A stretch of 15,484 nt of DNA from Actinomycetes bacterium (lineage in GTDB: Bacteria > Actinomycetota > Acidimicrobiia > Acidimicrobiales > Microtrichaceae): positions 1-15,484 of the forward strand of contig JAFAFZ010000340.1 of the NCBI GenBank assembly GCA_023423215.1, written 5' to 3'. The notes beneath the pieces were generated by a model. The model saw only the letters and a list, made by a program, of their open reading frames with translations, was not told the origin of the DNA and made no database searches. Position numbers and translations under genes: made by a program. This document shows positions 824 to 15,452 of this stretch, piece after piece (the first letter of the stretch is position 1; each line of letters starts with the position of its first letter).

Positions 824-2482
824 GTGTTGTCACTGATCGATCGAATCGAGGACGTCGCCGGGCGGGACCACGGCCAGATCACCTTCGTCAACGGTGACGT
901 CCACGACACGATCCGCTGGCCCCAGCTCCACGCCGAGGCCCGACTCGCCGCCGCCGGCCAGCAGGCCCGCGGCGTGCGTCCCGGGGACCACGTGGCGCTG
1001 CTCGGCCCGACGACCCGCCGCCTGATCACCACCATCCAGGCCACGTGGCTGACGGGCGCCGCGCTCGTCACGATGCCGCTGCCCATGCGCATGGGTGCGC
1101 TGGACCGCTTCATCGAGGACACCCGCAACCGCATCCGCCGCTCCGACACGAAGGTCGTCGTCATCGATCCCGAGCTCGCGGCGTTCGTCGAGCCCCAGCC
1201 GGGCGACCCGCCCTTCGTGACGCTGGACGAGCTGTACGCGGACCAGGGCCTCTCGGACTCGGACTACACCCGCCCGGACAGCGATCCCGACTCGCTGGCC
1301 GTGCTGCAGTTCACCTCGGGCTCGACCTCCGAGCCGAAGGGCGTGATGCTCCCGCACCGCGCCATCTGCAACAACCTGGACGGGGCCTGGCAGGCCGCGA
1401 AGATCAGCCCGGACGAGGTCATGGTCTCGTGGCTGCCGCTCTACCACGACATGGGTCTGGTCGGCTTCCTGACCATCCCGATGACGCTCGGCTGCACGTT
1501 GGTCCAGGGCGCACCGCAGGACTTCCTCGCCAAGCCGCTGCGCTGGCTCGAGTGGATCTCGACCCACGGCGGCACCGGCACCGCCGGGCCGAACTTCAGC
1601 TACGCGCTCGCCGCCCGCGCCCTGCGTCGCACGGACGCCGAGCTGGACCTGTCCAGCATGCGGGTGTGGCTCAACGGCGCCGAGCCGATCGACCCCGACA
1701 CCTTCCGGAGCTTCTTCGCAGCGGGCGAGCGGTTCGGTCTGGACCCGGCCGGTGCCTTCCCGGCGTTCGGCATGGCAGAGATCTGCATCGCCGGCTGCTT
1801 CCCCGAGCCCAGCGCCGGCCTGCACACCGACTGGGTCGACAAGACCGCGCTCGAGCACGACCGCCAGGCCGTGCCCGTCGACGCGGATGCCGAGTCCGCC
1901 ACCGAGCTGGTCCTGCTGGGCCGACCGGTGCCCGGCCTCGAGATCTCGATCATCGACACGGTGACCGGCGAGCCCTGCGGCGACCGCCAGGTGGGCGAGC
2001 TGCGCATCGCCGGCAACTCGCTGACCGCCGGGTACTACCGCCAGCCGGACGAGACGGCCGAGCTGATCATCGACGGCTGGCTGCACACCGGCGACCTCGC
2101 CTACACGGTGGACGGCTCGCTCGTCGTGTGCGGGCGCATCAAGGACGTAATCATCGTCGGCGGCCGCAACGTCTACCCGCAGGACATCGAGAAGGTCGCC
2201 GGCGACGTGCCCGGCGCGCGCACCGGCAACGTCATCGCCTTCGGCACCGAGGGGCGCCAGGGTGCGCAGAACATCATCGTCGTGGCCGAGGCGCGGGCGG
2301 ACGACCTGGATGCCGTCGTGAAGGGCATCACCGTCGCGGTGACCGAGGCCGTCGGCATCCCGCCGAAGCAGGTGCTGCTCGTCCAGCCGGGCACCGTGCC
2401 GAAGACCTCGTCGGGCAAGCTGCAGCGCTCGGCCTGCAAGCAGCAGTTCGTGGAGGGCACCCTCTCCCTGCTCGAGGGCTGA
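824..2482 (+). CDS. Fatty acyl-AMP ligase (FAAL), FadD-like adenylate-forming enzyme
   Basis: A 552-residue member of the ANL superfamily. It is predicted to activate a fatty acid with ATP to an acyl-adenylate and pass it to a carrier protein or CoA. The P-loop-like motif LQFTSGSTSEPKG is at residues 161-173. Further motifs are WLPLYHDMGL near 204, NGAEPI near 286, FGMAEI near 318, GDLAYTVDG near 424 and the C-terminal PKTSSGKLQR lysine loop near 525. GRNVYPQDIEK in the C-terminal hinge is typical of FAALs; ordinary acyl-CoA ligases usually have GENV-P-EVE. The GTG start at 824 fits an AGGAG at 807-811, though the 12-base spacing is long; TTG at 827 is an alternative. No carrier domain is fused, and no PKS or NRPS gene adjoins. 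True acyl-CoA synthetase activity cannot be excluded from sequence. Confidence 0.88.
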   Translation: MLSLIDRIEDVAGRDHGQITFVNGDVHDTIRWPQLHAEARLAAAGQQARGVRPGDHVALLGPTTRRLITTIQATWLTGAALVTMPLPMRMGALDRFIEDTRNRIRRSDTKVVVIDPELAAFVEPQPGDPPFVTLDELYADQGLSDSDYTRPDSDPDSLAVLQFTSGSTSEPKGVMLPHRAICNNLDGAWQAAKISPDEVMVSWLPLYHDMGLVGFLTIPMTLGCTLVQGAPQDFLAKPLRWLEWISTHGGTGTAGPNFSYALAARALRRTDAELDLSSMRVWLNGAEPIDPDTFRSFFAAGERFGLDPAGAFPAFGMAEICIAGCFPEPSAGLHTDWVDKTALEHDRQAVPVDADAESATELVLLGRPVPGLEISIIDTVTGEPCGDRQVGELRIAGNSLTAGYYRQPDETAELIIDGWLHTGDLAYTVDGSLVVCGRIKDVIIVGGRNVYPQDIEKVAGDVPGARTGNVIAFGTEGRQGAQNIIVVAEARADDLDAVVKGITVAVTEAVGIPPKQVLLVQPGTVPKTSSGKLQRSACKQQFVEGTLSLLEG

Positions 2483-3634
2483 CCCGGTCGGGCGACGACG
2501 GCCCGACCGTCGTGCGCCGCGGCAGCGGCGCCAGATCTCGGTCACGAACGAGCGCTCCATGCCGTCGTTCTCGACCGCGAGCACCGCGGAGCCGGTCGAG
2601 AACACCTGGTCCACCCGGCGACCGCCCGTGTCGACCGGACCCCAGTCGCCGTCGCCGACACGTGACAGCAACCCCTGGCTCGTCAGGACGAACGCTGTCT
2701 CGCCGTCCGGTGCGGACGCGACGCGACCTGCGTACAGCAGGCAGCATCCGCTGCCACCTGCGGCAGCGAGGTTGCTCGGACCGAGCGTCCAGGTACGTGC
2801 GTCGACGTCGAGCACGGCTTCGGTCGCGTCGTCGAGGATCGTGAACCGGCCGGCCACGCACAGCACCTGCCAGGCCGGCCCGACTCCCTCGGGTGGTGGG
2901 TCCACCCGAGTGCCCGGCGGCTTCCGGTCGATCGGTCGCAGCCGGACGTCCTGGCCGAGGACCAGCGCAGGCAGCGCTGCGACGCCCTCAGGCGGCGGCA
3001 CGAGGCTGTGGTCGACGGTCACCTCGGTGTCGTCGACGGTGCATCCCGTGCGGGTGCGCCCGTCGGCGTCGTAGCCCGGTGCGCGCTGGACGTGTCCGTC
3101 GCTGCTGACGAGGTAGCCCGTGGCACCCACGGCGAACTGCGCGAGCTCGCCGCGGCCGGCACTGCTCGTGAGCTCGGTCTCGTCGACCGGGAGCGTGTCG
3201 TGCGGCGCGTCCAGGCGGATCCAGCGCTGCCGGTGCGGGTCCAGCATCGCGAACGCGACCTCACCGCCCTCGCAGCTCCCGTCGGTGCAGGCGATGCCGC
3301 CGACGACCGCGCGCCCGTCCGCGGTGGCCAGCTGGAGGAAGCCGCTGAAGGGCAGGTCGGGCAGGTCGACCCACGTCCCGTCGTCACGACGCAGGACGGC
3401 GCGCAGCGGGTCGTCGCCGTCGCCGACTCCGCGGCTCTCGATCACCACGAGGTCGTCGCCGTCGCCCGCCGCCGCACCCCGGGAGATCGGGAACGGCACC
3501 TCTTCGACCGAGGAGCTCGGCACCGAGGTCGTCGTGGCGGCGCTCCCGTCGCCGATCGAGCAGGCCGGCATCGTCGCCGCGGCCAGGCACAGGCCGATCA
3601 CCGCCCGGGCGCGTCGTCGGTGGTGCGTGGTCAT
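2483..3634 (-). CDS. Putative exported lipoprotein with beta-propeller-like repeats; stop codon unresolved
   Basis: I do not recognise the family. The ATG at 3634 follows a strong AGAGGAG ribosome site (3643-3649) at 8-base spacing. The N-terminus has an Arg-rich n-region, a hydrophobic core and MPAC with Cys25, a slightly atypical lipobox, followed by an Ala/Ser/Thr linker, so export and lipidation are likely. The mature part has recurring Asp-Gly/Trp turns (DGTWVDLP, RQRWIRLD, ARTWTLGP, DGDWGPVD), each followed by a hydrophobic strand pair. This is what a Kelch-like or other beta-propeller looks like. Cys occur at C-x5-C and as a CC pair. Convincing protein sequence ends near EIWRR (about residue 370, base 2525). 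The frame has no stop there and stays open antisense to the acyl-AMP ligase down to base 830; that extension reads as a shadow. The low coordinate given here is simply the edge of the ligase gene. Confidence 0.62.
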
Positions 3635-3782: not shown

Positions 3783-4688
3783 ATGGCGCCGACCCTGGTC
3801 GCGTCCGCGCTGCTGGTCGGCGCGCTGCTGCTCTGCGTGCTGGCGACGATGGTGGTCGAGAACTGGCACCGCCTGCGCGTGCGCGTCGCCGTCCCGGCGG
3901 CCGAGCCGGAGCGGGTCCCGTCGCCGGCTCCCGCGCAGCTCGAGGTCGGGGACCTCGACGAGCCACTGGTGGACCACCTGGCGCTCGACGTGGCGGGGCT
4001 GGACCTCTCGACGCTCGACCTCTCGAACCTGGACCTGTCCGGCGTCGAGCTGGCGCAGCTGGAGCTCGTCGAGGAGGCGCCGGTGCCGTCGGCGCGCCCC
4101 GAGGTCCTGCACGTCGTCGGCGGACGCGAGCGCGCCGACCAGCTCATCGGCGCCCTCTTCGCGGCCTACGCCGCAGCGCGGCTCCCCGAGGCCGGCCGCG
4201 TCGCTGCGTGGGTCAGCGCGGTGGGCCGCCCGCCGGGCGAGGACGGCCGCGAGTTCGAGCCCGGAGCAGACCTGCGGGGCCGACCGGCAGCCGTCGCACG
4301 CCTGCTCGCGTGCGCCGTCGACGACCGCACGTGGGTGACCCTCAACCCCTCGGTCGACATCGCCCTCGGCGTCGCCCGCCGCCCGCCGACCTGTCCGACG
4401 CTCGCAGGGCTGGTCGCCCTGTGGGCCTCGACGCGTGCCGCGCTGTCGCAGGTGCCGGGCGAGCAGATCGCCCGGGTGGCCGACGCGATCACCACGCTCG
4501 AGGGCCGCTGGCGTGGCACACCGGTCGCGGCGGACGTGCTGTCGCTGCTCGTGGCGCTGACCGAGGCGGTCGAGCAGGATGCCACGCTGCGGCTCCAGGT
4601 GAGCCTCGTCCCCCTCGGCGGCGACGGCGGTGCGCCGGTGCACGCACCGGAGCCGCGTTCCACGTCGGCAGCGCTCCGGACGGTGTAG
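3783..4688 (+). CDS. Unrecognised membrane-anchored protein with tandem (L/V)(D/E)xxx pentapeptide units
   Basis: A 301-residue protein of no family I recognise. Residues 5-26 form one hydrophobic membrane segment. An Arg-rich stop and a Pro/Glu linker (about 27-52) follow. Residues 53-97 are nine uninterrupted five-residue units, each beginning Leu or Val then Asp or Glu; the clearest are LDLST, LDLSN, LDLSG and VELAQ. The rest (about 105-285) looks like a cytoplasmic alpha/beta domain, with ADQLIGALFAAYAAARLPEAGRVAAW and a later helical stretch. The ATG at 3783 was chosen because it starts the membrane segment. The frame is open further upstream, but only antisense to the lipoprotein promoter and gene. 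The start overlaps the stop of an 11-codon mini-ORF (TGATG). It ends 59 bases before the permease fusion on the same strand, so co-expression with the transporter is plausible; a functional link is only inferred. Confidence 0.7.
   Translation: MAPTLVASALLVGALLLCVLATMVVENWHRLRVRVAVPAAEPERVPSPAPAQLEVGDLDEPLVDHLALDVAGLDLSTLDLSNLDLSGVELAQLELVEEAPVPSARPEVLHVVGGRERADQLIGALFAAYAAARLPEAGRVAAWVSAVGRPPGEDGREFEPGADLRGRPAAVARLLACAVDDRTWVTLNPSVDIALGVARRPPTCPTLAGLVALWASTRAALSQVPGEQIARVADAITTLEGRWRGTPVAADVLSLLVALTEAVEQDATLRLQVSLVPLGGDGGAPVHAPEPRSTSAALRTV
3939..4073 (+). repeat. Nine in-frame 15-base units encoding (L/V)(D/E)xxx
   Basis: Residues 53-97 of the membrane-anchored protein fall into nine units of exactly five residues, starting at residues 53, 58, 63, 68, 73, 78, 83, 88 and 93. 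Position 1 is Leu or Val and position 2 is Asp or Glu in all nine. The middle units are close copies at DNA level (ctcgacctctcg-type), while the outer units have drifted. The phase resembles pentapeptide-repeat proteins, but the A(D/N)LXX consensus is not met, so I do not assign that fold. Confidence 0.75.
4634..4650 (+). repeat. Hairpin repeat copy 1 (inside the 3' end of the membrane-protein gene)
   Basis: GCCGGTGCACGCACCGG forms a stem of CCGGTG/CACCGG with a 4-base loop. A second copy differing at one base lies 67 bases downstream at 4701-4717. This copy is inside the coding sequence, encoding the Ala-Pro-Val-His-Ala-Pro segment. Confidence 0.55.
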
Positions 4689-4747: not shown

Positions 4748-6979
4748 GTGGGCCAGACGGCGCGCAGCAGTTCGCGACCGCTCGCCGACGCGAGCCTCTT
4801 CCTGCCCGCGATCGCGATCGTCGCGGTCCAGCTGATCTGGTTCCCGATGCCGTCGGGGGCGATCCTCTCGGGTGCGGTGCTCGGCGTGCTCGGGGCCCTG
4901 GCCGCCATCGGCATGGCGCTCGTCTGGCGGGCGAACCGGATCGTGAACTTCGCCCAGGGCGACCTCGGGGCGCTGCCCGCGACGCTCGCGGTGCTGCTCG
5001 TGACGCTCGGGGGGCTGCCGTGGCTGCTCGGCGTCACGATCGGCCTGGCTGCGGCGATCGTCGTCGGTCTGCTCGCCGACGTGCTCGTCGTGCGCCGCTT
5101 CTACCGGTCACCCCGTCTGCAGCTGACCGTCGTCACGCTCGGCCTGGCGCAGGTGCTGGCGTTCGGCGCGCTGCTCCTGCCGCGCTGGTGGGACGCGGGG
5201 CCGGCGATCCGCACGATGCCGCCACCGTTCGACGCCTCGTTCACGGTCGGCGGCGTGGTCTTCGACGCGAACGACCTGATCGCGATGGTCGTCGCCCCCG
5301 TGCTGATGGTCGTCGTGGCGCTCGTCCTGCGGTTGACCGACACCGGCGTCGCGATCCGTGCCGCGGCCGACCGCACCGACAGGGCGTCGATGCTCGGCAT
5401 CCCGGTGCGACGGCTCGAGGCGCAGGTGTGGGTGCTGGCCGCGGTGCTGGCCTACGTGTCGGTCGTGCTGACCGCGGGCGTGGCGAGCCTGCCGTTCGGG
5501 CTCGGCCTCGGGTTGTCGGTCGTGCTGCGGGCGCTGACGGCGATGGTCATCGGCCGCATGACCCACCTGGTCGTCATCGCAGTGACCTCGGTGACCCTCG
5601 GCATCCTCGAGGCCGGCGTGCGCTGGAACATGGGTGACGCGACGCTCGTCTCGCCGTTCCTCGCTGCGCTCATCGTCATCGCCCTGCTGCTGCAGCGTCG
5701 TGGGGCGACCCGGGCCGACCGGGACGACAGCTCGGCCTGGGGCGCGACGGGCGAGGTGCGACCCGTCCCGCCCGTGCTCGCCCGACTGCCCGAGGTCCGC
5801 CTCACCCGCCTCGTGCTCGTCGTCGCCACCGGCCTGCTCGTGCTCGGACTGCCGCCGCTGCTCGGCACCAACGGCCAACTCAAGGCCGGCGTGATCGTCG
5901 TCTTCGCGACCATCGGCACCTCGGTGGTGGTGCTGACCGGCTGGGCCGGCCAGGTGTCGCTCGGCCAGATGGCCTTCGTCGGCGTCGGTGCCGCGATCGG
6001 CGCCTGGGCGACGGTCGAGCAGGGCTGGGACCCGCTGGCGGCGATGCTGCTGGCGGGACCGATCGGCGCCGTCGTCGCCGTGCTCGTCGGCCTGCCGGCG
6101 CTGCGGCTGCGCGGCCTGTACCTGGCGGTGACGACGCTCGCCCTCTCGCTCGCCGCGTCGGAGTGGATCTTCTCGAACCGCGCCGTCGACTGGATCCCCG
6201 AGGGGTCCTTCCCCCGTCCGGAGCTGCTGCACCGCATCAGCCTGGACAGCCCGCTGCGGCTCTACTACTTCGCGCTGGTCGTGCTGGCGCTGGCGGTGCT
6301 GGCCCTGCGTGGCGTGCGCCGCAGTCGCACCGGGCGCGTGCTGATCGCGCTGCGCGACAACGAGCCGGGCACCACCGCCTACGGCGTCGACACCACCCGG
6401 GCCAAGCTCGGCGCCTTCGCGCTGTCGGGGTGCATCGCGTCGATCTCCGGCGTGGTGCTGGTCATCCACCAGGCGGCCTTCCGACCGGTCACCTACAGCG
6501 CGGAGGAGAGCCTCACCGTCTTCACCGCGACCGTCGTCGGGGGCCTCGGCTCGGTGCTGGGGGCCGTGCTCGGTGCCGTGTTCCAGCGTGGGTCGCAGTG
6601 GCTGCTGCCGATGCCCTGGTCGGTCCTGGCGACCGGTCTGGGCGTGCTCGTGGTGCTCTCCGCGGTGCCCGACGGCCTGGGCGGGCTGCTGTTCCGTGCC
6701 CGCGACCGGTTGCTCGGTGTGGTCGCCCGCCGTCATGGCCTGGTCAACACCGCGTTCGACCGCTCGCACGCGGCGCCGCTCGATGCCCTCGCCGCCGATG
6801 CCGTCCCCGACAGCCCTGCGCCGTCAGCAGACGGCACGACCGGTGCGACCGTCGCGCCGACCCTCGATGCGCCGTCGGCCACGAACGGCAGCGTGCCCTC
6901 GGCCAACGGCACCGGTGCTGCCCACACCGCCGAGAGCGACGCGCCCACCCCGCGCCGCGACGAGGAGGTCGCACCGTGA
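4748..6979 (+). CDS. Fused branched-chain amino acid ABC transporter permease (LivH-LivM)
   Basis: A 743-residue inner-membrane protein carrying both permease subunits of a LIV/HAAT-type importer in one chain. Residues about 15-320 are the LivH half. It has the characteristic NFAQGDLG (N67-G74) after the second membrane segment and the cytoplasmic AAADRTDRASMLGIPV coupling loop. Residues about 345-695 are the LivM half. It begins with strong hydrophobic segments, then GWAGQVSLGQ at 398-407, and has the coupling loop ALRDNEPGTTAYGVDTTRAKLGAFALSG. The last 65 or so residues are a disordered Ala/Ser/Thr/Pro tail with three PSA-x-NG-like copies. GTG 4748 is the only plausible start in frame before the first membrane segment; the preceding bases are G-rich (GGTGGA) but the spacing is very short. 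Its stop overlaps the next start (GTGA at 6976-6979). Confidence 0.9.
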   Translation: MGQTARSSSRPLADASLFLPAIAIVAVQLIWFPMPSGAILSGAVLGVLGALAAIGMALVWRANRIVNFAQGDLGALPATLAVLLVTLGGLPWLLGVTIGLAAAIVVGLLADVLVVRRFYRSPRLQLTVVTLGLAQVLAFGALLLPRWWDAGPAIRTMPPPFDASFTVGGVVFDANDLIAMVVAPVLMVVVALVLRLTDTGVAIRAAADRTDRASMLGIPVRRLEAQVWVLAAVLAYVSVVLTAGVASLPFGLGLGLSVVLRALTAMVIGRMTHLVVIAVTSVTLGILEAGVRWNMGDATLVSPFLAALIVIALLLQRRGATRADRDDSSAWGATGEVRPVPPVLARLPEVRLTRLVLVVATGLLVLGLPPLLGTNGQLKAGVIVVFATIGTSVVVLTGWAGQVSLGQMAFVGVGAAIGAWATVEQGWDPLAAMLLAGPIGAVVAVLVGLPALRLRGLYLAVTTLALSLAASEWIFSNRAVDWIPEGSFPRPELLHRISLDSPLRLYYFALVVLALAVLALRGVRRSRTGRVLIALRDNEPGTTAYGVDTTRAKLGAFALSGCIASISGVVLVIHQAAFRPVTYSAEESLTVFTATVVGGLGSVLGAVLGAVFQRGSQWLLPMPWSVLATGLGVLVVLSAVPDGLGGLLFRARDRLLGVVARRHGLVNTAFDRSHAAPLDALAADAVPDSPAPSADGTTGATVAPTLDAPSATNGSVPSANGTGAAHTAESDAPTPRRDEEVAP

Positions 6980-9900
6980 CCGTGATGGACCCGACGGTCG
7001 CGACGACGGGCGAGGACCGCATCACCTGGACGGACCTGCGCGAGTCCTCGCGTGGCGTCGTGGACCCGCGCCGCTGGTACCGCACGGCGCGTGCGCCACG
7101 AGCCGCGCTGCGGACGATGGTGGGCACCGGGCCGATCTTCCCGCTGCTCATCCTCTTCGGGCTGAACGCCGTGGACGAGCTCGACCGCACCGGCTTCGGC
7201 ATCCTGCTGCCGAACATCCGCGACGCGTTCGGCATGTCCAACACCGGCATCCTCTCGCTGGTCGCCCTGACCGCACTCGGCGCGCTGCTCATGCAGATGC
7301 CGATCGCGGCGCTGGCCGACCGCGGCAACCGCGTCGCGCTCGCGCTCGGCGGCGCCGTGCTGTGGGCGGTGTTCTCGGTCATGACCGGCGCGTCCACGGC
7401 CATCTGGATGCTGATCGTCGCCCGCACCGGTTCCGGCATCGGACGGGCGGTGGTGGACCCGACCCACAACGCGCTGCTGTCCGACTACTACGCGGTCGAC
7501 CGTCGACCCGGCGTGTTCTCGTTCCACCGCGGCGCGAACGTGCTCGGCCAGTTCCTCGGCCCGCTCATCGCCGGCGGGCTGGCGGCGGCGTTCTCGTGGC
7601 GGGCGCCCTTCTACGTGTTCGCCGTGCCGACGATCGTGCTGGTCGCGCTGGGCACCCGGATGAAGGAGCCGGTGCGAGGCGCCCAGGAGCGACGGGCCTC
7701 GGGCGCTGCGGACGAGGTCGCCGAGACCGAGGAGCCCACGCCGAGCTTCGCCGAGTCGTGGCGGCTGCTGTGGAAGATCGACGTGCTGCGGCGCATCTGG
7801 TACGCCGTGCCGTTCCTCGCCGTCGCGATCATCGGCTTCGTCTCGCTCGCCGGCCTCATGTACGAAGAGGTCTACGACCTGGACACCTTCGCCCGCGGCT
7901 ACCTCGCGGCGCTGGTCGAGCCGTTCCAGTTCCTCGGCCTGGCGGTCGGTGCCCGTCTCGGCACCCGTCTCTTCCTGCGGGACCCGGCGCTGATCTTCCG
8001 CTTCCTGCGCGGCGTCGCGTTCGCCTGCGCCGTGCTCGTCGCGTGCTTCGCGCTGGCGCCGACGCTGTGGCTCTCGGTCATCGCCAACATCCTCCTCACC
8101 TCGGTGCTCGCCGTCCTGCTCCCCGGCATCTTCGCCACGCTGTCGCTCGCCATCCCCGGTCGTGCCCGCTCGGTCGGGTTCTCGATCGCCTCGTGGTGGG
8201 CGATCCCCGGCCTCGGCCTGCTGCCGCTCGTCGGCTGGGTCAGCGACAACATCGGGACCCGGCAGGGCATGTTGGTCATGTCGCCGATCCTGCTGGTCGG
8301 CGGCCTGCTGATCGCGTCGGGCGGTGCGGTCGTGCGACGCGACATCGCGGACGTGTGGACCTCGTCCGCCGCACGCTCGAAGGCGCTGATCGACCGCAAG
8401 GAGGGCCGTGCGAACCTGCTGGTGGTGCACGACCTGAACGTGTCGTACGGGCCGGTGCAGGTCCTCTTCGACGTCAGCCTGGACGTCGCCGAGGGCGAGG
8501 TCGTGGCGCTGCTCGGCACGAACGGCGCCGGCAAGTCGACGCTGCTGCGCGCCATCTCCGGGGTGACCGAGGCGGACTTCGGCGCGGTCGTGCTGGACGG
8601 CCGCGACATCACGCACGCGCCCCCCAACGAGATCGCCGCGCTCGGCGTCGCGCAGGTGCCGGGCGGCCAGGGCGTCTTCCCGTCGCTCACCGTGAGCGAG
8701 AACCTGCGAGCCGCCAGCTGGATGACCCGGCGCGACCGCGCCGAGACCGAACGTCGCGTGGCCCAGGTGCTCGAGACCTTCCCCGTGCTGGCCGAGCGCC
8801 TCGACGAGCCCGCGGTCGACCTCTCGGGCGGCCAGCAGCAGATGCTGGCGCTCGGCATGGCGCTGCTGTCGCGGCCGAAGCTGCTGCTGATCGACGAGCT
8901 CAGCCTGGGCCTGGCGCCCGTGGTCGTCGCCCGTCTGGTCGAGCTGGTCAAGGAGGTGGCGGCGGGCGGCACGACCGTCCTGCTGGTCGAGCAGTCCGTG
9001 AACGTGGCGCTCTCGATCGCCACGACGGCGCACTTCATGGAGCGCGGGCGCATCCGCTTCTCGGGCCCCGCCCGGGAGCTGCTCGAGCGACCGGACCTGT
9101 TGCGCGCGGTGTTCGTGACGGGCGAGACCTCGACCGCCTCGGTCGACCTCGGCTCCGAGCGCCGCCGCCCGGTCCGAGCCGTCGAGCGGCCATCGGCCGA
9201 CGACGCAGCCCCGGCCCTGCGCCTGACCGAGGCCACCCGACGCTTCGGCGGCATCGTCGCGGTGGACGCGGTGAGCTTCGACGTCGCGCCGGGCGAGGTC
9301 GTGGGCCTGATCGGCCAGAACGGCGCGGGCAAGACGACGCTCTTCGACCTGATCTGCGGGTACCAGCCCCTCGACGCAGGCCGCATCCTGCTGGCCGGCC
9401 ACGACCTGGCCCACGACGCGCCGCACCGCCGCGCCGCTCGCGGGCTGGGGCGCACGTTCCAGGGAGGCCAGCTCTACCCGGGTCTGACCGTCGCCGAGAC
9501 GGTGGCGGTCGCACTCGAGCAGTCGCTCGACGTGCGGGATCCGCTGAACGCGGCGCTGGCGCTGCCGGCCCACTACGGCAGCGAGCGCGCCGCGCGGCAG
9601 CGGGTCGAGGAGCTGCTCGGCGTCTTCGGGCTGGGGAGCTACGCGGACCACTTCACGCGGGAGCTCTCGACCGGCACACGTCGCATGGTCGAGTTCGCGT
9701 GCGCGGTCGCGCACCAGCCCACCGTGCTCCTGCTCGACGAGCCGGTGGCCGGCGTCGCCCAGCGAGAGGTCGAGCAGCTCGGCACGCTGCTCCTGCGGAT
9801 CCGCGACGAGCTGGGTTGCGCGATGGTCGTGATCGAGCACGACATGCCGCTCCTGACCGCGATCTCGGACCGGCTCGTCGCGCTCGAGCTCGGCGAGGTC

Positions 9901-10071
9901 ATCTCGATCGGCGAGCCGGCCCGGGTGCTCGAGGACCCGAGGGTCGTCGCGTCGTACCTCGGCGACGATGCGATCGCGGTCGCCCGGTCGGGTGCGGCGC
10001 CCACCGGCCCGGCGCCGACCCGTGCCCCGACGACCGACCCGCCCGCGAGCCCTCCGGAGGACCGACCATGA
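6976..10071 (+). CDS. MFS transporter fused to LivF-type and LivG-type ABC ATPases
   Basis: A 1031-residue three-part protein. Residues about 45-455 are a Major Facilitator domain with about twelve membrane segments. It has DELDRTGFGILLPNIRDAFG after the first segment and the loop 2-3 motif ALADRGNRVA at 112-121. From residue 480 comes a LivF-like ATPase: Walker A GTNGAGKST 514-522, signature LSGGQQQ 616-622, Walker B LLLIDE 636-641, and VEQ in place of the H-loop His, which is usual for LivF. After an Arg-rich linker (about 720-746) comes a LivG-like ATPase: Walker A GQNGAGKTT 780-788, signature LSTGT 897-901, Walker B VLLLDEP 917-923, H-loop His955. GTG 6976 is preceded by AGGAGGT (6963-6969) at 6 bases and overlaps the permease stop. 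The frame is unbroken, so I see a real fusion, presumably energising the LivHM permease. The MFS substrate is unknown. Confidence 0.9.
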   Translation: MTVMDPTVATTGEDRITWTDLRESSRGVVDPRRWYRTARAPRAALRTMVGTGPIFPLLILFGLNAVDELDRTGFGILLPNIRDAFGMSNTGILSLVALTALGALLMQMPIAALADRGNRVALALGGAVLWAVFSVMTGASTAIWMLIVARTGSGIGRAVVDPTHNALLSDYYAVDRRPGVFSFHRGANVLGQFLGPLIAGGLAAAFSWRAPFYVFAVPTIVLVALGTRMKEPVRGAQERRASGAADEVAETEEPTPSFAESWRLLWKIDVLRRIWYAVPFLAVAIIGFVSLAGLMYEEVYDLDTFARGYLAALVEPFQFLGLAVGARLGTRLFLRDPALIFRFLRGVAFACAVLVACFALAPTLWLSVIANILLTSVLAVLLPGIFATLSLAIPGRARSVGFSIASWWAIPGLGLLPLVGWVSDNIGTRQGMLVMSPILLVGGLLIASGGAVVRRDIADVWTSSAARSKALIDRKEGRANLLVVHDLNVSYGPVQVLFDVSLDVAEGEVVALLGTNGAGKSTLLRAISGVTEADFGAVVLDGRDITHAPPNEIAALGVAQVPGGQGVFPSLTVSENLRAASWMTRRDRAETERRVAQVLETFPVLAERLDEPAVDLSGGQQQMLALGMALLSRPKLLLIDELSLGLAPVVVARLVELVKEVAAGGTTVLLVEQSVNVALSIATTAHFMERGRIRFSGPARELLERPDLLRAVFVTGETSTASVDLGSERRRPVRAVERPSADDAAPALRLTEATRRFGGIVAVDAVSFDVAPGEVVGLIGQNGAGKTTLFDLICGYQPLDAGRILLAGHDLAHDAPHRRAARGLGRTFQGGQLYPGLTVAETVAVALEQSLDVRDPLNAALALPAHYGSERAARQRVEELLGVFGLGSYADHFTRELSTGTRRMVEFACAVAHQPTVLLLDEPVAGVAQREVEQLGTLLLRIRDELGCAMVVIEHDMPLLTAISDRLVALELGEVISIGEPARVLEDPRVVASYLGDDAIAVARSGAAPTGPAPTRAPTTDPPASPPEDRP
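8398..8405 (+). promoter_or_regulatory. Internal Shine-Dalgarno-like sequence at the MFS/LivF junction
   Basis: AAGGAGGG lies inside the fusion gene, 7-8 bases before the codons (8413-8419) where a free LivF protein would normally start. The nearest in-frame GTG codons are at 8422 and 8425, about 17-20 bases away; a GTG at 8408 is out of frame. It encodes Lys-Glu-Gly, so chance is possible. It may be a relic of a former gene start, or allow a free LivF-LivG product. Confidence 0.4.
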
Positions 10072-11795
10072 GCCCGATGCGCGCGCAGGACACCGGTCGC
10101 GGCAACGTCGTCGCCCGGTACGGCCCGCTCACCCTCATCTGCCTGGCGCTGGTCGCGGTCTTCGCCACCCTGGTCGTCACCTCGCCCGACGACGAGGCCG
10201 CGAGCAGCGCAGCGCCGTCGTCCGCCTCGGGCGGAGCGGGCGACTCCGCCGGCGAGGAGCTGCCCGAGGGCGTGCTGCCCTGGAGCGTCGCCGAGGAGCG
10301 CGGCGAGGTCGACGACATCGACTGGGGCGCACGCTGCGACACCGAGGAGGGCGTGCTCGCGATCCCGCTGAACCCGCGTGCGGAGTGCTTCGCCCCGTTC
10401 GACGGCGACAACGGCGGCGAGACGACGCCGGGCGTCACGGCCGACACGATCAAGGTCGTCGTGTACGTCGCGCAGGAGGACGACCCGATCCTCACCTTCA
10501 TCTACAGCCAGATCGGCAACGACGACACGCCGACCGACACCTTCGAGACGTACCAGGGCTACAACGAGATGCTCGCCACGTACGAGGAGACCTACGGGCG
10601 TCGCATCGAGCTGATCCGCTACGACGCGACCGGCGCGGCGAACGACGCGGTCGCCGCGACGACCGACGCCGAGACGATCGCCCGCGACATCCGCCCCTTC
10701 GCGGTCATCGGCGGTCCGATCCTGACCGAGGCCTTCGCCGACACGCTCGCCGCCAACCAGGTGATGTGCGTGACCTGCACCCCCGGCCAGACCATCGAGT
10801 GGTACGAGCAGCGAGCGCCCTACGTCTGGGACATCCAGAAGAACGTCAACCAGTCCGCCATCCTGGCCGCCGAGTACGTCGGCAAACGCCTCGCCGGCGG
10901 CATCGCCGAGTTCGGCGGCGACGCGGTCAAGGACCAGCCGCGCAGCTTCGGGCTGATCTACCTGTCCACCGGCCCGTCGACCGAGGCCGTGCGCGAGGAG
11001 CTCGAGACCACCCTGGCCGAGGACTACGACGTGCAGTTCACCGACGTCGCCTCGTTCGCCTCACCGGTCGGCATGGCCGCCCAGGCGCGCGAGATCCTGG
11101 CCCGAATGAAGTCCGAGGGGGTCACGACGATCCTCTACTCGGGCGATCCGCTCGCGCCACAGACACTGACGACCACCGCGACCGAGCAGGACTACTACCC
11201 GGAGTGGGTCATCACCGGCTCGTCCCTCGTCGACACGACGATCTTCTCGCGCACCTACGACCAGGCCCAGTGGGCGCACGCGTTCGGCCCCTCGAACCTG
11301 TTCGCCCGCATCTCGCCCAAGGTCGCCGGCGCATCGTTCCTCTACCAGTGGTTCTTCGGCGAGCCGCCGCCCGCACGCACCAGCGCACCGATCGTCCTGC
11401 CGAACCTGCAGTTCCTCTACTCGGTGCTGCAGGGCGTCGGCCCGAACGTCTCGCCCGAGATGTTCCGGGCCGTGATCTTCGGCGCGGACATCGTCGACAG
11501 CACCGTGATCAGCCCCCAGATCTCGTGGGGTGAGCGTGGCATCTGGCCGGGTGTGGACTACGCAGGCGTCGACGACCAGACCGAGGTCTGGTGGGACGCC
11601 ACCGCGGTCGGCGAGGACGAGACCGGCAAGGTCGGCTCGGGCATGTGGACCTACGTCGACGGCGGTGCCCGGTTCCTGCCCGGCCAGTGGCCCGACACGC
11701 CGCCGGCCGCGTTCGACCCCGACGGTGCCGTGACGCTCTACACCGAGCTGCCCGAGGGCATCACGCTGCCGGACTACGAACCGCTGCGCGGCTGA
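10068..11795 (+). CDS. Branched-chain amino acid-type ABC transporter substrate-binding protein, signal-anchored
   Basis: A 575-residue extracytoplasmic binding protein of the type 1 periplasmic-binding fold (Peripla_BP_6 / LivJ-like). ATG 10068 overlaps the previous stop (ATGA) and has GGAGG at 10056-10060 with 7-base spacing. Residues about 18-38 are a hydrophobic segment without a lipobox Cys at its end, so it is probably an uncleaved anchor. A Ser/Ala/Glu linker follows to about residue 65. The binding domain begins at VTADTIKVVVYVAQEDDP and contains YQGYNEMLATYEETYGRRIELI, FAVIGGPILTEAFADTLA, the MCVTCTPGQ cysteine pair, and a second lobe with QAREILARMKSEGVTTILYSGDP. It is longer than most LivJ proteins (about 370-420 residues), because of the anchor, the linker and a long C-terminal part. 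It should feed the LivHM fusion encoded upstream. The ligand cannot be told from sequence. Confidence 0.87.
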   Translation: MSPMRAQDTGRGNVVARYGPLTLICLALVAVFATLVVTSPDDEAASSAAPSSASGGAGDSAGEELPEGVLPWSVAEERGEVDDIDWGARCDTEEGVLAIPLNPRAECFAPFDGDNGGETTPGVTADTIKVVVYVAQEDDPILTFIYSQIGNDDTPTDTFETYQGYNEMLATYEETYGRRIELIRYDATGAANDAVAATTDAETIARDIRPFAVIGGPILTEAFADTLAANQVMCVTCTPGQTIEWYEQRAPYVWDIQKNVNQSAILAAEYVGKRLAGGIAEFGGDAVKDQPRSFGLIYLSTGPSTEAVREELETTLAEDYDVQFTDVASFASPVGMAAQAREILARMKSEGVTTILYSGDPLAPQTLTTTATEQDYYPEWVITGSSLVDTTIFSRTYDQAQWAHAFGPSNLFARISPKVAGASFLYQWFFGEPPPARTSAPIVLPNLQFLYSVLQGVGPNVSPEMFRAVIFGADIVDSTVISPQISWGERGIWPGVDYAGVDDQTEVWWDATAVGEDETGKVGSGMWTYVDGGARFLPGQWPDTPPAAFDPDGAVTLYTELPEGITLPDYEPLRG

Positions 11796-11862: not shown

Positions 11863-12762
11863 TCAGGCGTCGTCGTCGGGGTGCTCGCGCAGGAACTCCT
11901 GCAGCTCCTCGGCCAGCTCGTCACCGCTCGGCAGGTGGTCGAAGCCGAAGGTCGGGGCGTCGTCCGGTCCGCCGAGGCCCTGGTCCATCATCTCCTCGAG
12001 CTGGCGGACCATCGTCTGGTGCTGGGGGTTCTCGGCGACGAGCTCGTCGAGGCGCAGACGCGTGGCGCGGGCGTCGGTCGGCAGCTGGCCCTGCTCGATG
12101 CGCAGCCCGGCGACCTCGCCCAGGCCCTCGAGCAGCGCGGCCGACGCGGCCGGGTACGGCATGGACGACACGTAGTGGGGCACCTGCGCCCAGAGCCCGA
12201 GCGCCGGGATGCCCGCGGCGTTGCAGTCGACGTCGAGCACCGCGTGGATGCCGCCCGGCACGTCGAGGGTGCCGCGCACGTAGCCGTGCAGCGTCGAGGA
12301 GAGCTCGGTCGACGACGTCGTGACCGACAGCGAGGTGCCGCGGGTGTGCGCGACCGGCGCCGGGTACGCGCCCAGCCCGACGACCATGCGGCAGCCGAAG
12401 TCCTCGGCGAGCTCGGTCACCGTCGAGGCAAACGCACGCCACTCGAAGTCGGGCTCCGCGCCGATCAGCAGGAGCATGTCCCGTCCGTCCGCGTCGCTGC
12501 CGGCCCGCAGCTCGATCGACGGCCAGGTCAGGTCGGTGATGAGCCCGTTGACCAGGTGCATCACCGGCCGGCGGGCCCGGTGGTCGAGCAGCCGGTCGGC
12601 GTCGAACTCGGCGACGGGGTCGGAGCCGGCGTGGCTCAGCAGGACCGACATGGCGTTGGCCGCGCCGAGCCCGGCGTCGATCCAGCCGTCGAGCGCGACG
12701 ATCATCACGGGATCGGTGAGCTCGGGCTGGAAGTGCACGTCGACGAGGGGGGCGTCGCTCAT
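11863..12762 (-). CDS. PAC2 family protein
   Basis: A 299-residue soluble protein of the PAC2 (proteasome assembly chaperone 2-like) family, whose bacterial role is not established. The N-terminal part has DPVMIVALDGWIDAGLGAANAM. The centre has MLLLIGAEPDFEWRAFA, GCRMVVGLGAYPAPVAHTRGTSL and HYVSSMPYPAASAALLEGL. The C-terminus, LPSGDELAEELQEFLRE, is typical of actinobacterial members. The ATG at 12762 overlaps the stop of the upstream phosphotransferase gene in an ATGA arrangement. GAGGAG lies 8-9 bases before it, so the two are translated from one transcript, probably with coupling. The gene converges on the transporter operon, with 67 bases between stop codons. No membrane segment or signal is visible. 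Confidence 0.9.
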   Translation of the reverse strand: MSDAPLVDVHFQPELTDPVMIVALDGWIDAGLGAANAMSVLLSHAGSDPVAEFDADRLLDHRARRPVMHLVNGLITDLTWPSIELRAGSDADGRDMLLLIGAEPDFEWRAFASTVTELAEDFGCRMVVGLGAYPAPVAHTRGTSLSVTTSSTELSSTLHGYVRGTLDVPGGIHAVLDVDCNAAGIPALGLWAQVPHYVSSMPYPAASAALLEGLGEVAGLRIEQGQLPTDARATRLRLDELVAENPQHQTMVRQLEEMMDQGLGGPDDAPTFGFDHLPSGDELAEELQEFLREHPDDDA

Positions 12763-13847
12763 CCGGTGGGCTCCTCGGGGGTGGGGACCTGCTGGGTGGC
12801 CTCGTCGGCCAGCTCGGCCAGCCGTTCGACCATGGCACGGAACCCGGCGACGGTGTCCTCGCCGACCTCGCCCATCGCGCCGCCGGCGTAGCGGGCGTAG
12901 ACCCCGGCGATGATGCAGGTGAGCTTCCAGTAGCCGAAGGCCACGTAGTAGGGGAGCGCGCTCAGGTCGCGGCCGGACACCTGGGCGTAGCGCTCGACGA
13001 GCTCGCGCTTGCGGGGGAAGCCCTCGAGCGCCGTCGGCGAGGCCTGGGGCATGACCGCGTCCTCGTCCGGGTCCGACCAGTAGACCCACAGCAGGCCGAC
13101 GTCCGCGAGCGGGTCGCCCAGCGTGCAGATCTCCCAGTCGAGGACCGCGGCCACGCTGCCGTCCGCGGCGAGCATGCAGTTGTCGAGCCGGTAGTCGCCG
13201 TGCACGATCGCCGCAGGCCCCTGGGGCGGGATCGACGCCGCGAGCCGGTCGTGCACCGAGTGCACCGTCGGCAGGTCCAGCCCGCCGACGACCTGCTCCT
13301 CGCTCTTGGCGAACTGCCCGTACCAGCGCTTCAGCTGGCGGGCGATGTAGTCCTCCTTGCGGCCGAGCTCGCCCAGGCCGACGGCGTCCACGTCCACCGC
13401 GTGGATCGCGGCGAGGACGTCGACGATCGACTCGCCCGCACGGCGGCGCGCCACCGGGTCGAGCGCCTCGGCCTGGGCGTGCGACCGGATGACCTGCCCG
13501 TCGACGAACTCCATGACGTAGAACGGCGCGCCGTTGACGGAGTCGTCGGCGCTCAGGCCGACCACCGGCGGGACGGGCACGGGGGAGTGCTGCAGCGCCG
13601 AGATGATGCGGTGCTCGCGGGCGACGTCGTGCGCGGTGGCCAGGACCTGGCCGAGCGGCGGAGGGCGCAGCACCCACCGGCGACCCCTGGCGCCGTCGGC
13701 CGCCGGCTGCTCGGTCAGCGCGTAGGTCAGGTTGGAGTGACCGCCGGCGATGAACTCGATCTCGAGCGGCAGCTGGACGTCGCTGACGTTGCGGGCGAAC
13801 CACGCGCTGACGTCGTCGGTGTCGATCCCCTCGACCTGTCCCGTCAC
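12759..13847 (-). CDS. APH-fold phosphotransferase family protein (ACAD10-like)
   Basis: A 362-residue protein with the aminoglycoside phosphotransferase/choline kinase fold. The nucleotide-binding N-lobe includes GGHSNLTYAL and VLRPPP; Arg61 stands where many kinases have Lys, as is common in the ACAD10-like branch. The catalytic loop is HGDYRLDN (216-223) and the metal-binding motif is LDWE (236-239). It is followed by LGDPLADVGLLWVYW, typical of the family. Such actinobacterial proteins are often near acyl-CoA dehydrogenases and are not antibiotic-resistance enzymes by default; the substrate here is unknown. The start is a GTG at 13847 with GAGGGGG about 5 bases upstream. TAGATT on the minus strand (13915-13920) is a possible -10 box. 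It heads a two-gene operon with the PAC2 gene and is divergent from the thioredoxin gene. Confidence 0.88.
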   Translation of the reverse strand: MTGQVEGIDTDDVSAWFARNVSDVQLPLEIEFIAGGHSNLTYALTEQPAADGARGRRWVLRPPPLGQVLATAHDVAREHRIISALQHSPVPVPPVVGLSADDSVNGAPFYVMEFVDGQVIRSHAQAEALDPVARRRAGESIVDVLAAIHAVDVDAVGLGELGRKEDYIARQLKRWYGQFAKSEEQVVGGLDLPTVHSVHDRLAASIPPQGPAAIVHGDYRLDNCMLAADGSVAAVLDWEICTLGDPLADVGLLWVYWSDPDEDAVMPQASPTALEGFPRKRELVERYAQVSGRDLSALPYYVAFGYWKLTCIIAGVYARYAGGAMGEVGEDTVAGFRAMVERLAELADEATQQVPTPEEPTG

Positions 13848-13985: not shown

Positions 13986-14687
13986 ATGGCCGACGTCACC
14001 GATGCCACCTTCCAGACCGCCGTCATCGAGCGCTCCGCCACCGTTCCCGTGGTGGTTGACCTGTGGGCCGAGTGGTGCGGACCCTGCAAGACCCTCGGGC
14101 CCATCATCGAGAAGGTCATCGCCGAGACCGACGGCCGCGTCGAGCTCGCGAAGGTCGACGTCGACGCCAACCCGCAGGTCGCCCAGGCGTTCCGGGTCCA
14201 GTCCATCCCGGCGGTCTTCGCCATCGTGGACGGCCGACCGGTCGACCAGTTCCTGGGCGCGCTGCCCGAGGCGCAGGTGCGCGAGTTCGTCGAGCGGCTC
14301 GTGCCGGCGGCCGAGCTCACGCCGGTCCAGCCGATGATCGCCCCCGGCGACGAGGCCTCGCTGCGCCAGGCGCTCGAGCTCGAGCCGGCCAACGCGGACG
14401 TCATCGTGGCGCTCGCCGAGCTGCTCGCGCTGGACACCCGCACCGACGAGGCGCTCGCCCTGCTCGAGAAGATCCCCGAGTCGCCCGCGACCCGCCGCAT
14501 CGCGGCGCTGGCCCGCACGGGCCCCTCGAACCCGGCGGACGTCGAGATCCGCCTGATCGGCCTGCTCGACCAGGTGAAGGGCGACGAGGGCGCTCGACAG
14601 CAGTTCGTCGACCTGCTCGAGTTGCTGCCGGACGATGATCCGGCGAAGGCGCAGTGGCGCCGCAAGCTCACCGCCCGGCTGTTCTGA
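13986..14687 (+). CDS. Thioredoxin-domain protein with helical C-terminal extension (YbbN/CnoX-like)
   Basis: A 233-residue protein. Residues 1-105 are a thioredoxin domain with the active site WCGPC (W30-C34) and the cis-proline loop SIPAVF (Pro75). Residues about 115-233 form a TPR-like helical extension, with LRQALELEPANADVIVALAELLALDTRTDEALALLEKIP and a final helix LLPDDDPAKAQWRRKLTARLF. This layout is that of the YbbN/CnoX co-chaperone family, which protects proteins from oxidative damage and hands them to chaperones. Unlike E. coli YbbN, which has lost the usual CxxC pair, both cysteines are kept, so oxidoreductase activity is likely. The gene stands alone, divergent from the phosphotransferase gene and about 200 bases upstream of ahpC, another oxidative-stress gene. 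Confidence 0.88.
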   Translation: MADVTDATFQTAVIERSATVPVVVDLWAEWCGPCKTLGPIIEKVIAETDGRVELAKVDVDANPQVAQAFRVQSIPAVFAIVDGRPVDQFLGALPEAQVREFVERLVPAAELTPVQPMIAPGDEASLRQALELEPANADVIVALAELLALDTRTDEALALLEKIPESPATRRIAALARTGPSNPADVEIRLIGLLDQVKGDEGARQQFVDLLELLPDDDPAKAQWRRKLTARLF

Positions 14688-14888: not shown

Positions 14889-15452
14889 ATGACCCTGGTC
14901 AACACCAAGATCAAGCCCTTCTCCGCCACGGCGTTCAAGGACGGCGAGTTCGTCTCCGTCTCGGACGAGGACGTGCTGGGCAACTGGGCGGTGTTCTTCT
15001 TCTACCCGGCCGACTTCACCTTCGTCTGCCCCACCGAGCTCGGTGACCTGGCGGACCACTACGAGGAGCTGAAGGGCCTCGGCGTCGAGGTGTACTCGGT
15101 GTCGACCGACACCCACTTCACGCACAAGGCGTGGCACGACACCTCGGACACGATCGGCAAGATCGACTACCCGATGATCGGCGACCCCACCCTCGAGATC
15201 AGCACCAACTTCGAGGTGCTGCGTGAGGGTCAGGGCCTGGCCGACCGCGGCACGTTCCTCGTCGACCCCGACGGCGTCATCCAGTTCATGGAGATCACCG
15301 CCGAGGGCATCGGCCGCAACGCCGCCGAGCTCCTCCGCAAGGTCAAGGCCGCTCAGTACGTGCGCTCGCACCCGGGCGAGGTCTGCCCGGCGAAGTGGGA
15401 AGAGGGCGAAGAGACCCTCGCCCCGTCGCTGGACCTGGTCGGCAAGATCTGA
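14889..15452 (+). CDS. ahpC: Alkyl hydroperoxide reductase C, typical 2-Cys peroxiredoxin
   Basis: A 187-residue cytoplasmic peroxidase reducing hydrogen peroxide, organic peroxides and peroxynitrite. The peroxidatic Cys47 is in [10 protein letters not shown], and the resolving Cys166 is in [10 protein letters not shown]. The conserved active-site Arg120 is in [14 protein letters not shown]. Length and motifs match the E. coli/Salmonella AhpC type (Cys46/Cys165, 187 residues). ATG 14889 has GAGG (14877-14880) with 8-base spacing. The electron donor, AhpF or AhpD, is not in the window; 32 bases remain after the stop, so a partner gene could follow outside. The OxyR-like operator in front predicts peroxide induction. 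Confidence 0.96.

Follow-up and report, generated by a model that had tools for sequence, protein, structure and literature searches.

ATP-binding cassette (ABC) importers and carriers of the major facilitator superfamily (MFS) are textbook opposites in their use of energy. Secondary carriers working with an ATPase, such as ArsB with ArsA, and MFS lipid carriers joined to their enzyme, such as LplT fused to Aas, are known, but these belong to different families from the system described here and include no Liv permease or binding protein. The closest described ABC systems are the Liv/HAAT importers of branched-chain or related amino acids and the UrtABCDE importers of urea, which we take to fall under TC number 3.A.1.4, and the closest described MFS carriers are the Spinster proteins (HnSpns, MsSpns, SPNS1 and SPNS2), a family of lysolipid and sphingolipid transporters. 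MFS carriers with fused C-terminal CBS, CNBD, PAS or UspA domains, as well as a sensor kinase-MFS family (2.A.1.34), have also been described (PMC10710835, PMC3924187). Here we examine a 15,484-nucleotide stretch of DNA (the window; assembly GCA_023423215.1, contig JAFAFZ010000340.1) from an actinobacterium of the Microtrichaceae, in which an MFS carrier and two ABC ATPases of the LivF and LivG types are encoded in one gene, beside a fused LivH-LivM permease (LivHM) and a binding protein.

The fusion gene occupies an uninterrupted forward-strand frame (6976-10071) coding for 1031 residues plus a stop, with the Pfam and NCBIfam domains in place, which bears out the proposal of the initial annotation that the three parts form one chain. 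From the N-terminus, an MFS domain (residues 54-451; 7135..8328) with 12 membrane helices read from the structural model is followed by a linking segment (452-481; 8329..8418), a LivF-type ATPase (482-713; 8419..9114) with Walker A GTNGAGKST, signature LSGGQ and Walker B LLLIDE, a linker predicted to be disordered (714-740; 9115..9195) and a LivG-type ATPase (748-996; 9217..9963) with Walker A GQNGAGKTT, signature LSTGT, Walker B LLLDE and H955. Of the Pfam domains that the initial annotation expected, MFS_1 was found at 61-406 (8.7e-39) and ABC_tran over two stretches (4.8e-60), while BCA_ABC_TP_C (974-999) fell slightly below its cut-off (23.7 versus 25.5 bits). Upstream, the forward-strand permease gene (4748..6979, with a putative start at about 4748) carries two BPD_transp_2 domains, PF02653 matching two stretches of 4784-6976 (2.6e-50), in agreement with the fused LivHM neighbour that had been suggested. 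Downstream on the same strand lies the gene for a 575-residue substrate-binding protein (10068..11795). As the permease stop overlaps the fusion start (GTGA at 6976-6979) and the end of the fusion gene overlaps the binding-protein start (ATGA at 10068-10071), the three genes look like one translationally coupled unit.

This arrangement resembles the Liv/HAAT and UrtABCDE importers in bringing together LivH-, LivM-, LivF- and LivG-type parts with a LivK-fold binding protein, and differs from them in that the two permeases form one protein, the two ATPases form another that also includes an MFS carrier, and Pfam finds no match in the window's binding protein. It also differs from the MFS fusions cited above, since what has been added to the carrier is a pair of motors from another transporter, whose permease and binding protein are encoded alongside. 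No description of an MFS-LivF fusion was found in the open-licence literature, as judged mainly from the listed titles and the opening lines of abstracts; both halves belong to known superfamilies, and it is their combination, its variants and its spread that were not found described there.

The fusion is conserved well beyond this contig. In a protein search, 119 of the 120 best matches (those beyond the window's own) were 69-90% identical, and 118 of these 119 cover at least 93% of the query. The loci compared here are the best 80 of 244 encoding stretches from a scan of species genomes, with more than 100 bits taken as a clear MFS match. MFS and LivF share one stop-free frame in all 67 loci with such a match, which rules out an artefact or missed stop, and the many fused relatives in protein and genome searches rule out a fusion limited to this assembly; the two findings that the initial annotation had named as fatal to its reading, a stop between the parts or occurrence in one assembly only, were thus both negative. 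LivG is also in frame in 64 of the 67, five of these being cut by a contig end. The other three are L059, a short contig whose LivG match is false and which is left outside the LivG count, L053, where LivG is out of frame and breaks also run through the ligase and binding-protein matches, and L064, whose contig stops before LivG. LivHM lies upstream of the fusion in all 53 loci with enough flank, and a binding protein downstream in 53 of 58. By their labels as deposited, some of which are doubtful, 78 of the 80 loci are from Actinomycetota, one from Acidobacteria and one unassigned; the doubtful labels, judged by gene content, belong to two Bifidobacterium breve metagenome-assembled genomes (MAGs) and one short Acidobacteria contig (L004, L031, L052). 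Two of the fused records, IMCC26207 (L003) and Ilumatobacter nonamiensis YM16-303 (L015), do not carry a MAG label. Genome surveys, which give lower bounds because at most 15 candidates per genome were scored in the class-level sample and at most four in the phylum-level sample, matched the MFS part at 1e-15 in at least 38 of 119 class-level genomes (stand-alone carriers included) and at 1e-100 or better in at least 25, and a match spanning MFS and LivF in at least 16 of 296 phylum-level genomes, with LivF alone in at least seven more. One genome (G083) contains at least eight MFS-part matches and at least four that span MFS and LivF, and the family is thus expanded in some species.

Several arrangements of the same parts were seen. 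In type A, that of the window, LivHM precedes MFS.LivF.LivG, which precedes the binding protein; in type B (for example L060-L063, L141, L144, L145 and L150) the binding protein comes first, followed by LivHM and MFS.LivF.LivG. Proteins of the MFS.LivF form are common: the best 120 matches to one such query are 669-779 residues long, and all have MFS and ABC domains. Thirteen loci with MFS.LivF and no in-frame LivG were fetched: in ten of them, here called type C, LivG has joined the permease as LivHM.LivG in one frame (L139, L140, L142, L143, L153, L155-L158 and L165, the last with a run of Ns at the MFS/LivF junction that makes a frame change there uninformative), two (L148 and L149) have a separate LivG, and around the MFS.LivF of L154 no LivG was present in the fetched stretch. 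A single example (L173:6371-11557) combines LivHM, MFS, LivF and LivG in one open frame of 1729 codons. All fused cases examined have the MFS on the N-terminal side of LivF, which ties it to the ABC complex.

Both ATPases appear complete. The residues given here come from an alignment of 59 rows (A1), made up of the window, 54 of 60 near-complete loci (near copies and partial rows being dropped) and four of the 119 protein matches. The Walker lysines K520 and K786, the signature residues S617-G618 and S898-x-G900, D921/E922 and H955 are each conserved in 59/59 rows, and D640/E641 in 58/59. NCBIfam models of the UrtE/LivF type lie on 481-704 and of the UrtD/LivG/LptB type on 747-998, as expected for the two motors originally proposed. 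UrtE (310.5, cut-off 285.8) and LptB (279.7) score above their cut-offs and UrtD (303.7/304.1), LivG (278.2/362) and LivF (250.8/441) below, although these whole-protein scores sum both ATPases and so do not test membership of any one family cleanly; on sequence the ATPases are assigned to the LivF and LivG types, at the level of type and not of equivalog. A urea importer was considered and rejected, as UrtB (68.7/250.3 bits) and UrtC (82.4/296.2 bits) were far under their cut-offs.

The binding protein is divergent. Searches of the PDB with the window's protein gave no convincing match (E 0.051 by sequence and 0.16 by profile at best), and it was therefore placed by fold, which is of the LivK/LivJ type (type I). 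It is larger than its structural matches, the part that they cover being preceded by an N-terminal helix, read as a membrane anchor, and by the invariant C90 and C107.

The MFS domain is closest in fold to SPNS1, SPNS2 and HnSpns. As the top 50 Foldseek rows for the whole model were ABC proteins, the MFS was judged from VIA-align of Foldseek matches and from profiles: SPNS1 (36.5) and SPNS2 (35.8) were tied, ahead of the best values for SV2A (34.4), VMAT2 (33.4) and sialin (31.7), and the best profile match was 6e8j (over profile residues 16-166), followed by SPNS1. In common with Spinster proteins, the fused carrier has the TM1 aspartate (D70, 55/59; D41 of HnSpns), the TM4 arginine (R150, 55/59; R122 of HnSpns), the motif A charge relay (D115, R119 and D170, each 59/59, matching D87-R91-D142 of HnSpns) and the arginine of loop 6-7. 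It departs from them in being joined to ABC ATPases and in lacking a glutamate in TM4 (E129 of HnSpns) that is reported to act as the proton switch of two studied Spinster proteins. None of the 59 rows has an acidic residue in this column, occupied in the window by R157 (7444..7446), the count being 30 Lys, 21 Arg, five Gln and three Ala. The Walker residues, which the initial annotation had singled out together with the proton-coupling residues of the MFS, were thus conserved; in the MFS the motif A relay was kept and the proton switch was not. With the relay kept and the switch column mostly Lys or Arg, the MFS is less likely to be driven by protons in the ordinary way.

Our preferred reading, held tentatively and at a little under an even chance, is that the fusion supplies the ATPases of a Liv-type (type I) importer, with a complete Spinster-like MFS placed ahead of LivF as an auxiliary carrier or gate. 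LivF must contact LivH or LivM in order to work, and the MFS should accordingly sit in the same complex. The binding protein would hand its solute to LivHM, import would be driven by ATP use at LivF and LivG, and one MFS would be held beside each importer through the seat of LivF on LivHM. The MFS, which still has the hardware for alternating access and a central column of basic residues but not the proton-switch glutamate of the studied Spinster proteins, is proposed to move or sense an anionic, amphipathic solute (the predicted substrate) related to the imported one, and would work as a second carrier or a substrate gate built into the importer rather than as an independent proton-driven pump. 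Helix 453-475 may link the position of the MFS to the ATPase. In an AlphaFold2 model built from the 59 aligned sequences (mean pLDDT 86.1, pTM 0.75), this helix runs between the final membrane helix and LivF and stops just ahead of residue 482, with no low-confidence stretch in 452-481, while residues 714-740 between the ATPases are of low confidence (pLDDT below 50); in the model the MFS-LivF joint thus looks direct and the LivF-LivG joint loose. A stronger form, a distinct class of hybrid transporter in which the ATP cycle of the importer is mechanically coupled to the rocking of the carrier, so that one solute enters by ATP and a partner solute via the MFS, seems to us quite unlikely.

The MFS might instead be a membrane anchor or assembly scaffold for the ATPase pair, setting its stoichiometry, with transport vestigial, and the initial annotation had raised a mainly anchoring role. 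If it were no more than an anchor, the MFS should drift faster than the working permease, and it drifts more slowly: over 29 type A loci with all parts, namely the window and 28 relatives picked by hand (L004, L007 and L034 being left out because they nearly duplicate L003, L006 and L030), mean pairwise identity was 0.689 for LivF, 0.611 for LivG and 0.562 for the MFS, compared with 0.504 for LivM, 0.482 for the binding protein and 0.478 for LivH. The N-terminal half of the MFS (0.601) is conserved above the C-terminal half (0.519), and the buried and gating charges are near invariant in type A. The missing proton-switch glutamate would fit an anchor. So would five loci (L073, L074, L076, L078 and L079) in which LivH, LivM, LivF and LivG form one frame of about 1215-1290 codons with no MFS. 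A single chain there holds the entire ABC core, as though the ATPases had to be tethered in some way; the other five MFS-less loci keep LivF-LivG in frame with neither MFS nor LivHM, which speaks against such a need. On balance the conservation disfavours an anchor, and we regard it as rather unlikely.

Alternatively, the MFS cavity could bind the imported solute or a product of it and switch the ATPase on or off, in the manner of transporters turned receptors. The predicted helical link to LivF and the loss of the proton switch with retention of the conformational charge relay are consistent with such a sensor, and regulatory domains fused to ABC importers and to MFS proteins are a known theme (PMC10710835). 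A whole 12-helix carrier would, on the other hand, be an unusual sensor, and we give this option a lowish probability, noting that the auxiliary carrier or gate shades into it. In a true hybrid pump, one of the ideas in the initial annotation, ATP use by LivF and LivG would power the MFS itself. Fusion of the MFS to LivF in all fused cases examined would suit this, and Lys or Arg in the switch column (51/59) could make the carrier independent of the proton gradient. However, LivHM, the usual client of such ATPases, adjoins the fusion, and the ATPases carry their usual motifs, so that the motors already have a user; we consider a hybrid pump highly improbable.

The trees bear on how the fusion arose. 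In an MFS tree of 64 hand-picked rows, also used for the wider residue comparison (53 fused and 11 stand-alone, with L165, L167 and L174 omitted), type C forms a set with support 91 and types A, B and D a set with support 99; these lie together and apart from nine of the 11 stand-alone carriers, which fits one founding fusion. The remaining two are the carrier of L159, which is unplaced, and that of L170 (7837-9780), a stand-alone MFS with no ATPase part in frame that is nested among fused forms, possibly through loss of its motors. No unfused precursor, that is a stand-alone carrier beside Liv genes, was found in the stretches fetched around 13 stand-alone relatives (L159-L164, L166-L171 and L174) when these were compared with the window's Liv parts.

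Several observations weigh against an auxiliary carrier or gate. Thirteen of the 80 loci have no MFS match above 100 bits, and while three of these are contig-end cuts (L066, L067 and L070), ten (L069 and L071-L079) carry LivF-LivG and no MFS. In a LivF tree of 68 rows (21 of 65 inner branches open, outgroup branches long), MFS-less forms stand among fused ones in three places, which suggests that the MFS has been lost and can be lost. The same loci may be read the other way, since an ABC core that does without the carrier implies that the MFS adds a function. The loss of the proton-switch glutamate is not tied to fusion, as the column is acidic in none of the 11 stand-alone rows either, and it is acidic in three of the 53 fused rows of the wider set. 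Core residues vary more outside type A, the column of H164 being His in 10 of 14 type B and seven of 12 type C/D rows. R307 (7894..7896), which in the AlphaFold2 model lies close to the outer end of helix 8, is Arg in 52 of 53 fused and two of 11 stand-alone carriers, and this split may reflect kinship, the two groups being largely separate clades. The neighbours of the module differ between loci, and the coupling of MFS to ATPase is purely inferred. Overall, the interpretation first put forward was upheld in part, and the Spinster kinship, the alternative fusions of the same partners and the MFS-less relatives have been added to it.

Among the genes that flank the module, an acyl-CoA/acyl-AMP ligase (824..2482, forward strand) was considered as a sign of a lipid link. 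Such a ligase lies upstream on the same strand in only 12 of 44 loci, others having unrelated neighbours, and we judged the link weak; its proximity may be a matter of shared synteny, as largely the same loci also have PAC2, APH and thioredoxin genes. In the window, and by the module in several related loci, these are represented by a PAC2 protein (11863-12762, reverse), an APH-type phosphotransferase (12762-13847, reverse) and a thioredoxin with a TPR-like tail (13986-14687, forward). An AhpC-type peroxiredoxin (14889-15452, forward) and two predicted proteins with no Pfam match, one of 390 residues (2463-3634, reverse) and one of 301 residues (3783-4688, forward; matched in L005 at 48%), are also encoded. 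Searches of the window for tRNAs and for Rfam families (at gathering scores) found none.

The motors of an ABC importer and an MFS carrier are here covalently joined, in a form conserved in many actinobacterial genomes. The natural variants, with LivG moved to the permease, all parts in one frame or the MFS lost, offer a ready set for asking whether an ATPase can steer a carrier or be steered by one, and if the MFS still transports, it would hint at what these environmental actinobacteria take up.

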